Shown here one piece after another: positions 8,041-14,148 of a stretch of DNA of 14,538 nt (its first letter is position 1; every line of letters starts with the position of its first letter). Made by a program: the position numbers and the translations under genes. Below the pieces are notes generated by a model that did not search any database, was not told where the DNA came from, and saw nothing but the letters and a program-made list of their open reading frames with translations. The stretch spans positions 1 to 14,538 of the forward strand of contig JAGGVT010000084.1 in NCBI GenBank assembly GCA_021157815.1, given 5' to 3'. This DNA is from a bacterium. GTDB lineage: Bacteria; JAJVIF01; JAGGVT01.

Positions 8041-8106
8041 AGCAGTTTCAAAATATCCAGCGATAGAGTGTAACATACAGCGGGTGATGGAAAAATAGGG
8101 GATTTT

Positions 8107-8122
8107 AATAGGGACAGTCCCC
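8107..8122 (+). repeat. Left REP-like motif flanking the RAYT gene
   Basis: AATAGGGACAGTCCCC. It is the exact reverse complement of the 16 bases at 8869-8884 on the other side of the transposase gene. The core GGGACAGTCCCC is itself nearly palindromic around a central A/T. The same core is found twice at 10583-10714. Confidence 0.9.
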
Positions 8123-8138
8123 ACTGTAACTACGCTAT

Positions 8139-8167
8139 TTGACTGACATTACAGTTCAGTGTATTAT
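8139..8167 (+). promoter_or_regulatory. Promoter of the RAYT gene, probably leaderless
   Basis: TTGACT (8139-8144), a spacer of exactly 17 nt, and TATTAT (8162-8167): 5/6 matches in each hexamer. The transcription start expected 6-7 nt after the -10 falls on the ATG at 8174. There is no Shine-Dalgarno sequence ahead of that ATG. Together these suggest a leaderless transcript. Confidence 0.6.
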
Positions 8168-8173
8168 ATCACC

Positions 8174-8851
8174 ATGCCAAGACAAGCACGAATAGTTGTG
8201 AGGAACGTACCTCATCATGTAACTCAAAGAGGTAACCGGCGCCAGGATGTCTTTTTCTCAACTAAGGGGCGAAAGAAATATCTAGGATGGCTGGCTCAGT
8301 ATTCAAGCAGATACAGATTTGAAATACTAGCGTATTGCCTGATGACTAACCACATTCACATTGTCGGCATACCGCGCAATGAAAACAGCATGGGGCGTAC
8401 GCTGCAAATTGTCAATATGTGCCATACTCAGTCTGTGAATCGAGCGCATGGATGGGAGGGGCATCTATGGCATAGCCGATACTTTTCAACAGCGCTGGAT
8501 GAATCACATCTATGGCTTGCAGTGCGCTATGTTGAGCAAAATCCGGTACGCGCGGGCATGGTAATGCGAGCGTGGGATTATCCATGGTCAAGCGCCGCCT
8601 GTCATTGCGGATTACGGTCAGATCCGCTTCTTGTGCAGAATCACGAGTACAGCGGCATCTTTGAGGATTGGTCGGATTTGCTTGATGAAATACCGGAGAA
8701 GGAAGAAATTGAAAAGCTGCGAAATCGAACACGCACTGGTATTCCATGTGGAGATGATAAGTTCATTAAGAAAGTTTCAAAAATATCTGGTCGGGATTAC
8801 ACGAAAAAAACAAGAGGTCGCCCTGCGAAAAAAGAAGGGAATAGCCAGTAA
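8174..8851 (+). CDS. REP-associated tyrosine transposase (RAYT, Y1/IS200-like)
   Basis: A 225-residue single-domain HUH/Y1 transposase. It starts MPRQARIVVRNVPHHVTQRG, the typical RAYT N-terminus, so the ATG at 8174 is preferred to the in-frame GTG at 8159. The metal-binding HUH motif is NHIHIV (H60, H62), and the catalytic tyrosine is probably Y119 in RYVEQNPVRAG, a signature RAYT context. The basic C-terminus TRGRPAKK is also typical. In characterised RAYTs this enzyme nicks and joins single-stranded REP hairpins and is thought to spread REP/REPIN sequences within its own genome. The reading frame is intact with all catalytic residues. Inverted GGGACAGTCCCC copies flank it at 8107-8122 and 8869-8884. 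It points opposite to the neighbouring genes and sits between der and crt as an insertion in a minus-strand region. Confidence 0.93.
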   Translation: MPRQARIVVRNVPHHVTQRGNRRQDVFFSTKGRKKYLGWLAQYSSRYRFEILAYCLMTNHIHIVGIPRNENSMGRTLQIVNMCHTQSVNRAHGWEGHLWHSRYFSTALDESHLWLAVRYVEQNPVRAGMVMRAWDYPWSSAACHCGLRSDPLLVQNHEYSGIFEDWSDLLDEIPEKEEIEKLRNRTRTGIPCGDDKFIKKVSKISGRDYTKKTRGRPAKKEGNSQ

Positions 8852-8868
8852 TGAAGGTCTATTCCAGA

Positions 8869-8884
8869 GGGGACTGTCCCTATT
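8869..8884 (-). repeat. Right REP-like motif flanking the RAYT gene
   Basis: GGGGACTGTCCCTATT, the exact reverse complement of 8107-8122. It lies 17 nt after the transposase stop codon and 24 nt past the crt stop, so both converging transcripts may run into it. With the left copy it delimits a unit of about 778 bp. Confidence 0.9.
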
Positions 8885-8908
8885 TAATTTACTAACCTGC
8901 CAACCGTT

Positions 8909-10582: not shown

Positions 10583-10714
10583 CAAAAAAGGCAAAAAAGG
10601 GGACAGTCCACACAGAATTTCCAGTTTGATGATTTCAATAGATATTGTTTAAAGCACTAGTGTTTATTGTGTTTATAAACATTTTTGGGACAGTCCCCTT
10701 TTTTGCCTTTTTTG
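10583..10714. repeat. REPIN-like element sharing the RAYT-flanking motif
   Basis: A perfect 22-bp inverted repeat: 10583-10604 (CAAAAAAGGCAAAAAAGGGG then AC) is the reverse complement of 10693-10714, with an 88-nt centre. Each arm's inner end contains the motif seen beside the RAYT gene: GGGGACAGTCC at 10599-10609 and GGGACAGTCCCC at 10687-10698. The centre has no coding frame and includes the palindrome GTTTATAAAC (10671-10680). The element occupies almost all the space upstream of hbd, ending 25 nt before its start codon, so the hbd promoter must lie inside it or beyond it. Nothing else is recognised between 10715 and the next gene at 10789. Confidence 0.85.
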
Positions 10715-10788: not shown

Positions 10789-11301
10789 TCATTTTTCCTT
10801 TTCAAAATTTGCTTTTATATAATTGACAATATCTCCAGCTTCGAGAATACGAAGGAAAGTTTTCGGCAGCGCTTTTCCACGTGCCGCAAGTCCGCTGGTT
10901 CGGTTTCTCACGATTGAATCAAAAGGATTAACCTCGATAAGGTCGCCGTCCGCAATCATCTCAAGCGCGATTGGCAGAATGATAATGGGAAATCCCAGGT
11001 TGATTGAGTTTCGCAGGAATATCCTGTTCAAACTAACAGCGACAACCGCGCTGATTCCCATTCCCATAAGCGCCATAGTGGTCTCTTCGCCGGTATCTCC
11101 CTTAGCGAAATTCCGCCCCGCGACTATGATATCACCGTGCGCTATTTTGCTTTTTAAGGATTTGTCATACGCGTCAAAGCAATGCGCCTTGAACTCGTCA
11201 CGATTGAAACTGCCCCTGCAAATGATAGGAACTATCATGCCTGAGCGTACATTGTCAGGAAGAATGACTGCTCGACCGGATATGATTGATTTATCTGTCA
11301 T
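10789..11301 (-). CDS. IPM dehydratase/aconitase-like small subunit lacking the GSSREH motif
   Basis: A 170-residue protein with the swivelling-domain fold of LeuD/homoaconitase small subunits, close to the short archaeal-type length. Clear homology: HGDIIVAGRNF then MGISAVVAVSLNRIFLRNSINLGFPII (about 55-106), matching 'G.NFG...Gi.aViA.SFarIFyRNaiN.GLp'. The stretch between differs. Where LeuD has GCGSSREHA, this protein reads AKGDTGEET (66-74). In aconitase the two serines and the arginine of that motif supply the catalytic base and bind substrate; here they are Asp, Thr and Gly. The N-terminal 'DnIdTD.IiPar' is also altered (DNVRSGMIVPII). Dehydratase activity as known is therefore unlikely. 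It follows the large subunit by 9 nt with no clear ribosome binding site, so translation is probably coupled. Confidence 0.8.
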   Translation of the reverse strand: MTDKSIISGRAVILPDNVRSGMIVPIICRGSFNRDEFKAHCFDAYDKSLKSKIAHGDIIVAGRNFAKGDTGEETTMALMGMGISAVVAVSLNRIFLRNSINLGFPIIILPIALEMIADGDLIEVNPFDSIVRNRTSGLAARGKALPKTFLRILEAGDIVNYIKANFEKEK

Positions 11302-11310
11302 ATTATAAAT

Positions 11311-12561
11311 TCAAACAAACTCCCTGGCGGATGTTATTTTGCCTGTAACAGCGCTCGCTGCGCATGTTTTCGTTCCCGCAAGATATATCTCAGACGCAAT
11401 ATGTCCTACGATACCCTCATAGTTTAATGAACTGTTAATTAAAACATGTTCATCTTTCGCGCTGATTCCATGATTGCCGTAACCTTCGGGACCTCGTCCG
11501 GGAGCGCAAACCATTATTCCTGCTTCCACGAATCGTCCGATTATACCCTCCCTCACAGCGATATTGTAAATATCACTCGATGATGGATAAACCATTAGAC
11601 GAACATCAGGATTCAGTTTATTGCGTGAGAGTATTGAATCAAGCTCAATGAGATTCTGATATGTTCCGCCGAGCCCTCCGCCGATTAATATCAAATCCAC
11701 CTTTGTTTCTTCGATATCCTCAACCGGAATAATTTCATTTTCACCGGATGGCAGCGCGACCATCGGTTTAAGCTCATTCAGATTGATGGAAACATCGTTA
11801 TCGAATATCGTTTCGGGATGTTCTGTTTGAGTCTGCTCAGCGGGAAGTCCCAGCTGTACAAAGAGTTCCGCGGATGGTGGAATAATCGCGCTTGTCGCTC
11901 CGCTTTCCATTATGAAATAGGCAACTTCAAGGCGTTCATCCAGTGTAAGATCATACGCGCCTTGAGAGTTGAATTCATATATGCTGGCATCATCGTCATT
12001 ATCAGATTGGGAAATTACACTAAGCGAGATATCAACGCCATCCGTCCATTCAGGTTTCCTGCCGTTTAGCGCGATTTTTAATGTCTCAGGAATAAGAAGA
12101 TGAATGCTGCCTTTTCGCCATAACGCCGCGACATCACCCGCGCCAATCGCGGTGGCGTAACAGCCTAATCCGCCAAGCGCTCCTGTTATTGGGTCTGTTC
12201 CGACAATCAACATTCCCGGTTTGACAAGCCCTTTATTCACAGCGACAACAGCGCCGATTCCTGAACGCCCCAAATCGCAGAAGTGCTTAAGCTTCCATTC
12301 TTTTGCCTTGCGACGGATTTTGTTTTGAATTTCAGCGCCGTCAATCGTGGATGGCGGTGTGAAATGCTCGCAGGTTACAAGGATTTTGTCCTTATCCAGA
12401 GGCTCTTCGCCGCCCATCTGATCGAACACTTCAATACTGCGCACGGTGGCAAGGTCATCGCAGATTACCAAATCGACACTGACATCAATCATCTCACCAA
12501 TTGAAATGACAGCGTTGTCAGAATGTTCACGAAGTATGCTTTCACCAAGTTTGGCTAACAC
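11311..12561 (-). CDS. IPM dehydratase/aconitase-like large subunit lacking Fe-S cysteines
   Basis: A 416-residue protein with LeuC/homoaconitase layout and near-canonical length for the two-subunit type. Collinear motifs with altered key residues: CEHFTPP (64-70) for '.DH..P'; SGIGAVVAVNKGLVKPG (100-116) for 'GI.Hqv..E.G...PG', losing His and Glu; GTDPIT (121-126) for GTDSHT; LDERLEVAYFIMESGA for the 'R.tl.NM..E.Ga' helix; LIGGGLGGTYQNL (292-304) for 'iGSCTNGR..DL', Cys to Gly at 296; APGRGPEGYG (353-362) for 'PGCGPClG', the two Cys becoming R356 and E359; SLNYEGIVG (378-386) for NRNFEGRmG, losing both Arg. The frame is intact, so this is not a pseudogene by sequence. It should not bind a standard [4Fe-4S] cluster. 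GTG start (12559-12561), with GGAG eight bases upstream. It lies in the sppA-maf array. Confidence 0.82.
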   Translation of the reverse strand: MLAKLGESILREHSDNAVISIGEMIDVSVDLVICDDLATVRSIEVFDQMGGEEPLDKDKILVTCEHFTPPSTIDGAEIQNKIRRKAKEWKLKHFCDLGRSGIGAVVAVNKGLVKPGMLIVGTDPITGALGGLGCYATAIGAGDVAALWRKGSIHLLIPETLKIALNGRKPEWTDGVDISLSVISQSDNDDDASIYEFNSQGAYDLTLDERLEVAYFIMESGATSAIIPPSAELFVQLGLPAEQTQTEHPETIFDNDVSINLNELKPMVALPSGENEIIPVEDIEETKVDLILIGGGLGGTYQNLIELDSILSRNKLNPDVRLMVYPSSSDIYNIAVREGIIGRFVEAGIMVCAPGRGPEGYGNHGISAKDEHVLINSSLNYEGIVGHIASEIYLAGTKTCAASAVTGKITSAREFV

Positions 12562-12594: not shown

Positions 12595-13200
12595 TTAAAA
12601 CAAATCACGATAATCATAACCTGTTTTTCCAATCAACTGAAACAGATTAAAAACAGGCAGTCCAACCACATTGAAATAACAACCCTCGATACGTTCAATG
12701 AATATTCCGCCCATGCCCTGAATCGCGTATCCACCAGCTTTCCCGAATGGTTCGCCGGTGGAAACATACCAGTTTATATCATCATCACAAAGGTTTGTGA
12801 AATATACGCTTGTCGATTCATGCGACAAGACAGGCTCACCATCGCCCTCTCGAAGTGCGATTGCGGTAATCACCTTGTGCCTTTTTCCACTTAATTTCCT
12901 GAGGAAATTCGCCGCTTCATCTGAATCTTTTGGCTTGCCGAAAACCATGCCATCTATCGAGACCACAGTATCAGCGGTTAGCGCAAGTTGATTCTGAGTT
13001 AAATTCAGCGACAGCGATTTCCTTAGCGCAATCGCCAATGCAATATCAGAAGGGGATATCGATGAGTTTTCAATATCGATATTCTCATCGATATCCGGCG
13101 CAGGGATAATGCTGAAATTAATCCCCAGGTTCTCAAGGATTTCCTTTCTTCTAGGCGATGCCGATGCCAGAGTTAATTCAATCATCGAATAGTCATTCAT
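12595..13200 (-). CDS. maf: Maf family nucleoside triphosphate pyrophosphatase
   Basis: House-cleaning enzyme that hydrolyses non-canonical or excess NTPs to NMP and PPi. The family was originally named for a septum-inhibition phenotype. It has 201 residues, a normal length. Motifs: LTLASASPRRKEIL (9-22), the substrate loop; LALTADTVVSIDG (72-84) with D77 as the probable catalytic base; VFGKPKD (87-92); GKAGGYAIQGMGG (153-165); IEGCYFNVVGLPV (171-183). The GGYAIQG form is the one seen in dTTP/UTP-type Maf proteins, so that specificity is likely but not proven. The start ATG (13198-13200) directly abuts the sppA stop (TAA-ATG, zero gap), implying coupled translation. A second ATG five codons in is an alternative start. 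Confidence 0.94.
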   Translation of the reverse strand: MNDYSMIELTLASASPRRKEILENLGINFSIIPAPDIDENIDIENSSISPSDIALAIALRKSLSLNLTQNQLALTADTVVSIDGMVFGKPKDSDEAANFLRKLSGKRHKVITAIALREGDGEPVLSHESTSVYFTNLCDDDINWYVSTGEPFGKAGGYAIQGMGGIFIERIEGCYFNVVGLPVFNLFQLIGKTGYDYRDLF

Positions 13201-14148
13201 TTAACGAATTGCCATCCGCATTAGCAGATGATTCATGTAAAGCGATGTTGCCATTGTGCGTAAATCAGTTTGTGGAAATGATGGCGCGAATTTCATCTCG
13301 AATCCCCTGAGCAGTTCATCAAAGATTGAACCCTCACCAAGAGGAGAAACGACATAATCGTTCACATCAAGACCGCCTTCGGTTGCCGCGCGGTCAAGTG
13401 CATCCTTCAATCCGCCAAGTTCATCCACAAGGCCAAGGTCTTTCGCCTGCCTGCCGCTCCAGATTTCACCTGTCGCGATTTTGTCCACTTCGTTTTTAGT
13501 CATGCCCCTGCCCTCCATGACCGCTTCCTTGAATTGCTCATGCACCTCATCGAGAATATTCTGCAATATCTTCTTTTCTGCAGGAGTCATGGGACGATTC
13601 GGGCTTCCAATGTCCTTGTACTTGCCTGCTTTTAAAGTAACATTATCCAGCCCGATTAAATCGTACAGGCCCTCATAATTAAGCAGCTGCATGATAACGC
13701 CGATTGAACCTGTTAATGTAGCAGGATTGGCGTAAATGACATCCGCCGAGGCAGCGACAAAATATCCGCCGCTTGCAGCGACATCGCCCATCGAGACAAT
13801 AATCTTCTTTCCGGATTGGCGGTATCTCTGAATTGCCGTGAATATCTCCTGGCTGGCTGCTGCTGACCCGCCGGGGGAATTGACTCGAATTACAACCGCT
13901 TTGATATTGCCATCCTTGATTGCTTCATCAATCTGTTCAACAACGGTTTCAGAACTCGTTCCGGCAGTCGGCATGAACGGGTTCATTCCACTTCTCTCTG
14001 CTGTGATTATACCGTTGATGTGGATTAATCCCACGCGATCGCCGCTGTATGGTATTCCGGCTGATGTAAAGTCATTGCAGCTAATACCAATGAAAACCGC
14101 GAGAGTTATTATCGCAATCAAGCCCAGGACCGAAAGGAAATTCTTCAT
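13201..14148 (-). CDS. sppA: Signal peptide peptidase SppA (short form)
   Basis: Membrane-anchored Ser/Lys protease that degrades signal peptides and other membrane-associated peptides. At 315 residues it is the single-domain, Bacillus-like form, not the 600-residue double-domain one. One N-terminal hydrophobic helix (about 4-23) ends in GISC, which resembles a poor lipobox (Gly, not Leu/Val, at -3), so a lipoprotein is possible but weakly supported. The protease domain has VNSPGGS (89-95), the nucleophile Ser126 in DVAASGGYF, LTGSIGVIMQ (145-154), and the general-base Lys178 in GKYKDIGSPNRPMT. A downstream EIWSGRQAKDLGLVDELGG block completes the S49 signature. ATG at 14146-14148 has GGAGG seven bases upstream. 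It is the first gene of the array sppA-maf-large-small subunit. Confidence 0.95.
   Translation of the reverse strand: MKNFLSVLGLIAIITLAVFIGISCNDFTSAGIPYSGDRVGLIHINGIITAERSGMNPFMPTAGTSSETVVEQIDEAIKDGNIKAVVIRVNSPGGSAAASQEIFTAIQRYRQSGKKIIVSMGDVAASGGYFVAASADVIYANPATLTGSIGVIMQLLNYEGLYDLIGLDNVTLKAGKYKDIGSPNRPMTPAEKKILQNILDEVHEQFKEAVMEGRGMTKNEVDKIATGEIWSGRQAKDLGLVDELGGLKDALDRAATEGGLDVNDYVVSPLGEGSIFDELLRGFEMKFAPSFPQTDLRTMATSLYMNHLLMRMAIR

Follow-up and report, generated by a model that had tools for sequence, protein, structure and literature searches.

The window, which is the whole stretch of DNA analysed, is a 14,538-nt contig from a 3.2 Mb MAG that is 91% complete. It carries two neighbouring genes, LC and LD, whose products resemble the large (LeuC) and small (LeuD) subunits of isopropylmalate isomerase (IPMI). 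They lie downstream of the Maf and SppA genes:

13201–14148, minus strand: SppA, upstream of Maf and on the same strand
12595–13200, minus strand: Maf, upstream of LC and on the same strand
11311–12561, minus strand: LC, LeuC-like large subunit of 416 amino acids, GTG start, intact frame
10789–11301, minus strand: LD, LeuD-like small subunit of 170 amino acids, intact frame

The large-subunit gene precedes the small-subunit gene, and the two are separated by 9 nt (11302–11310). LC matches the Pfam family Aconitase (PF00330, 1.5e-39, 136.7 bits) over nearly the full model, and LD matches Aconitase_C (PF00694, 8.4e-08, 33.1 bits), which together with the coordinates bears out the initial annotation of the locus as two intact LeuC/LeuD-type reading frames of normal length. 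HBD and enoyl-CoA hydratase (ECH) genes follow downstream of LD on the same strand. About 195 nt with REP-like palindromes separate LD from HBD, so that a single operon of LC/LD with HBD/ECH is weakly supported.

The AF2 model of LC (pLDDT 90.3, pTM 0.92) has 4kp2, a homoaconitase/IPMI large subunit, as its nearest solved structure (VIA Z 53.2, 1.7 Å over 405 residues), and that of LD (pLDDT 93.4) has 3vba, an IPMI small subunit (VIA Z 26.1), the predicted folds being partly carried by the canonical relatives that made up the AF2 input alignments. The predicted fold of domains 1–3 with a separate domain 4, as well as the adjacency of the genes, agree with membership in the LeuCD family. The three Cys for a [4Fe-4S] cluster, the Ser-Ser-Arg of domain 4 and the NRNFxGR arginines are missing. 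LC does not reach the cut-off of any LeuC/HacA model in NCBIfam (best for the archaeal-type PRK00402, 304 bits vs 385), while LD passes TIGR02087 only, and narrowly (114.6 bits vs a cut-off of 108.95).

The pair is similar to archaeal-type LeuC–LeuD (PRK00402, TIGR02086/TIGR02087; PDB codes 4kp1, 4kp2 and 3vba) in gene order, lengths, predicted fold and most of the fold Gly and Pro residues, with an identity of about 30–33% for LC and up to 39% for LD, but it is devoid of the cluster Cys, the Ser base and the substrate Arg. Aconitase X (AcnX, type I/II) shares the superfamily fold, also departs from the classic active-site set, and binds [2Fe-2S] or [4Fe-4S] via its own Cys residues (PMC8184944). 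The identification of LC as AcnX was rejected, as the structural Z is about 20 for AcnX vs 48–53 for IPMI/HACN and no AcnX model was among the NCBIfam matches of LC. A separate AcnX-like protein is encoded on contig C197 of the same genome.

The active-site motifs of LC were called in an alignment with 32 homologues, and further column tests used 36 and 41 canonical rows. The mAcn numbering was assigned to LC and LD by motif matching, and the equivalences are presumed. The roles of the residues, such as the binding of carboxylates by Arg, are those of the published aconitase structures. The positions are as follows:

12364–12369, minus strand: LC Glu65-His66, acid dyad (mAcn Asp100-His101), with Asp65 changed to Glu and His66 kept
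12250–12252, minus strand: LC Ala104 in place of the GxxH His (mAcn His147), which is His in 31/32 homologues
12187–12195, minus strand: LC Asp123-Pro124-Ile125 in place of D-S-H (mAcn Asp165-Ser166-His167), with Asp kept, and Ser and His present in 32/32 homologues
11674–11676, minus strand: LC Gly296 in place of a cluster Cys (mAcn Cys358), Cys in 32/32 homologues
11485–11496, minus strand: LC Arg356-Gly-Pro-Glu359 in place of C-G-P-C (mAcn Cys421/Cys424), both Cys in 32/32 homologues
11410–11430, minus strand: LC S-L-N-Y-E-G-I in place of N-R-N-F-x-G-R, both substrate Arg gone (R379 in 32/32 and R384 in 31/32 homologues)
11221–11250, minus strand: LD R-S-G-M-I-V-P-I-I in place of D-T-D-x-I-I-P-A-R by alignment consensus, the equivalents of mAcn Asp568 and Arg580 gone
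11089–11097, minus strand: LD Asp69-Thr70-Gly71 in place of S-S-R (mAcn Ser642 base, Ser643 and Arg644) by a column test, S-S-R being present in 66/66 LD rows among the matches listed

In aconitase, Ser642 is the base and three Cys are the cluster ligands (PMC8184944). The equivalents of all of these are replaced in LC/LD, together with those of the four carboxylate-binding Arg (R447, R452, R580 and R644). Altogether, 15 of the 18 mapped active-site residues of mAcn are replaced, and only the equivalents of His101, Asp165 and Glu262 are kept (His66, Asp123 and Glu196 of LC, correspondingly). The initial annotation had listed the exchange of the three cluster Cys for Gly296, Arg356 and Glu359, the change of GTDSHT to GTDPIT, the loss of both NRNFxGR arginines and the replacement of the small-subunit GSSREHA, all of which hold; LD reads AKGDTGEE where the canonical sequence is GCGSSRE(H). 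Its claim that the catalytic His/Glu stretch is lost holds only in part: His66, Asp123 and Glu196 are kept and Asp100 is changed only to Glu.

At columns conserved in at least 95% of sequences, LC has lost 10/13 active-site residues vs 33/77 elsewhere (Fisher p=0.034) and LD has lost 7/7 vs 13/31 (Fisher p=0.009). At such columns LC keeps 20/26 Gly and 5/7 Pro (25/33 together). LC/LD thus show the feature of pseudoenzymes, in which the catalytic residues are lost and the frame and fold residues are retained. Judging from established chemistry, LC–LD would not be expected to catalyse the known isomerase reaction once the metal site, the Ser base and the four carboxylate-binding Arg are lost, and the loss of all four Arg speaks against the usual mode of binding for hydroxy-di/tricarboxylate substrates.

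Frameshift or assembly errors had been named at the outset as a possible source of the altered motifs, and the source is indeed a MAG contig of 14.5 kb. Such an origin is exceedingly improbable. The LC/LD frames have 0 stops and the other sense frames of the region have 10–41, and canonical motifs were not found at the expected places in those frames, so a double frameshift hiding them was rejected. The lengths are normal, and the codon usage of LC/LD is that of typical coding sequence and like that of the neighbouring genes. The changes are spread across both LC and LD, and the SppA–Maf neighbours are common to the window and to the genome G002 of the same phylum. To the extent that sequence permits, the artefact can be taken as refuted.

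No orthologue with the LC changes turned up when LC patterns were run against GTDB genomes and viral contigs, and the best 80 relatives listed by an alignment-based GTDB scan are all canonical. Whole-genome samples, which are overlapping sets (59, 385 and 392 genomes for LC, 385 for LD), gave no jump in score, and the closest matches that were read keep the motifs. The matches listed from a plasmid collection are 29–31% identical to LC and mostly annotated as LeuC. The initial annotation had linked its proposal to the existence of homologues sharing the substitutions, and here the searches made went against it, as none was found. Since the substitutions were found in no other genome searched, a conserved family cannot be claimed.

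The phylum is represented by four genomes, and a LeuC with intact motifs is found in G001, G002 and G003. The LeuD genes of G001 and G002, also with intact motifs, lie apart from their LeuC genes. The canonical LeuC genes of G001 (C56, L073) and G003 (C71, L074) are located between genes for a multi-pass and a small membrane protein, with no adjoining LeuD, and no leuB was found in either genome. The LC branch is so long, with ~7 changes per site, that its placement in the tree is uncertain, and a topology that groups LC with the G001 and G003 LeuC is not rejected (p-AU 0.42). Orthology of LC to the second pair on contig C103 of the window genome was rejected (p-AU 0.097, worse by 24.8 log units), as was, weakly owing to long-branch effects, orthology to the LeuC of G002 alone (p-AU 0.045).

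The gene order is SppA-Maf-LC-LD in the window and SppA-Maf-acyl-CoA dehydrogenase (ACAD)-LeuB-x-LeuC in G002, where LeuC is canonical, and this partial synteny suggests the descent of LC/LD from a leucine-type locus. Neither LeuA_dimer (PF08502) nor leuB was found in the window genome, although at 91% completeness either absence may be a gap; the single Iso_dh gene adjoins an aconitase gene on C103. KARI is present, and a 468-amino-acid HMGL protein on C52 is similar to IPMS/homocitrate synthase but scores below all cut-offs. LeuA_dimer was not found in any of the phylum's four genomes (G000–G003), though G002 has leuB and leuC. Synthases of the IPMS/homocitrate group, 468–517 amino acids long and without the LeuA_dimer domain, are present in G000–G003.

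Whether the genome has a canonical leuCD elsewhere had been left as a question, and an intact LeuCD-type pair (GCGSSREQ) is indeed present on C103. It follows Iso_dh and a 609-amino-acid aconitase and precedes a succinyl-CoA-synthetase-like gene (34421–40400, L072), an array which forms a TCA-type cluster containing two enzymes of the aconitase superfamily. A similar LeuCD-type pair adjoins the aconitase in G003 and the succinyl-CoA-synthetase-like gene in G001. Given the intact pair on C103, the ancestral reaction could be done elsewhere, and in the window genome it may be either gone or so performed.

The best explanation, to which a probability of about 0.6 is assigned, is that LC/LD descend vertically from a LeuCD pair, have given up its chemistry and are retained, cluster-less, for a non-isomerase role, probably ligand-dependent regulation. 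An IPMI-type LeuC/LeuD would have been passed on vertically, losing its Fe-S site, Ser base and substrate Arg while keeping both subunit folds and the adjacency of the genes. LC and LD would assemble as a pair without a bound cluster, the former active-site cleft would bind another ligand, and the opening and closing of the pair would serve regulation or scaffolding. The initial annotation had proposed a cluster-less heterodimer with a new role rather than decay; the missing cluster ligands, the kept fold, the involvement of both partners and the 0 stops sustain a cluster-less pair and speak against random decay. The new role is conjectural, and RNA binding, one of the roles suggested, is weakly disfavoured. 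Against the retained-pair explanation stand the singleton status of LC/LD and the very long branch, the latter fitting relaxed selection too.

Decay was modelled by 400 neutral simulations, which started from the canonical LeuC and LeuD of the relatives and stopped when the loss of conserved residues in LeuC equalled that in LC. The simulated pairs acquired a mean of 10.6 stops and a minimum of 2, compared to 0 observed in LC/LD, so a pseudogene drifting without constraint over the whole divergence is unlikely. Gly and Pro are kept at 25/33 positions vs 19.1 expected under neutral decay (p=0.005). It is rather unlikely that LC/LD are a functionless late relic of a lost classical leucine pathway, one on which selection has become very weak but in which no stop has arisen so far. 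The failure to find leuB and LeuA_dimer in a 91% complete genome, the extreme branch length and the changes at 33/77 conserved columns outside the active site of LC would fit such a relic, but all 400 neutral runs gave at least two stops, Gly and Pro are retained, the codon usage is normal and active-site losses outnumber fold losses.

Retention could also mean that the pair is an iron-free enzyme, a different lyase, hydratase or isomerase in which LD Asp69, at the Ser642 position, would act as the base and LC Glu65-His66 as the acid. The kept equivalents of His101, Asp165 and Glu262, the mere change of Asp100 to Glu, the Asp at the base position and the HBD and ECH genes downstream on the same strand are consistent with this, but the His147 and His167 partners are missing, as are the metal site and every substrate Arg, the palindrome-containing gap separates LD from HBD, and from a single sequence a conserved new motif cannot be shown; the proposal is considered improbable. 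A role as an RNA-binding regulator has superfamily precedents in the apo form of IRP1 (PMC6584224) and apo-AcnB of E. coli (PMC4150767), and the eukaryotic single-chain regulators IRP1 and IRP2 are similar by analogy as an aconitase fold without catalysis. However, cluster binding by IRP1 is reversible, whereas the cluster ligands of LC are gone altogether. LC is strongly acidic, and its net charge of -27.5 vs a canonical LeuC median of -8.0 speaks weakly against RNA binding, while the window has no Rfam family match at gathering scores; this role appears highly improbable.

The superfamily fold combined with the failed catalytic features of LeuCD makes LC/LD a candidate heterodimeric pseudo-isomerase, of which this is so far the only example. 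We are not aware that any such LeuCD pair has been described, and a small, limited literature check found no paper on a cluster-less LeuC/LeuD pair, as the initial annotation had supposed. It is tentatively suggested that LC/LD might be the first case in prokaryotes of a two-subunit aconitase-superfamily protein with the Fe-S site permanently lost in one partner and the base and substrate Arg lost in both, now working as a heterodimer that either responds to a ligand or catalyses without iron. If real, the case would be one in which the chemistry of a heterodimeric Fe-S enzyme was lost from its two subunits jointly, with the fold and operon kept, and it would show the conversion of a dehydratase cleft into something else. 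LC/LD would then provide a defined pair for testing the iron-free use of the aconitase fold in bacteria.

Inverted repeats of the GGGGACAGTCCC type are located at positions 8104–8129, 8862–8887, 10583–10609 and 10688–10714 of the window, where they flank an IS200/Y1-like transposase gene (8159–8851) and occupy the interval from LD to HBD. The transposase and the GGGGACAGTCCC-type repeats together look like a REP-associated transposase and its repeats.
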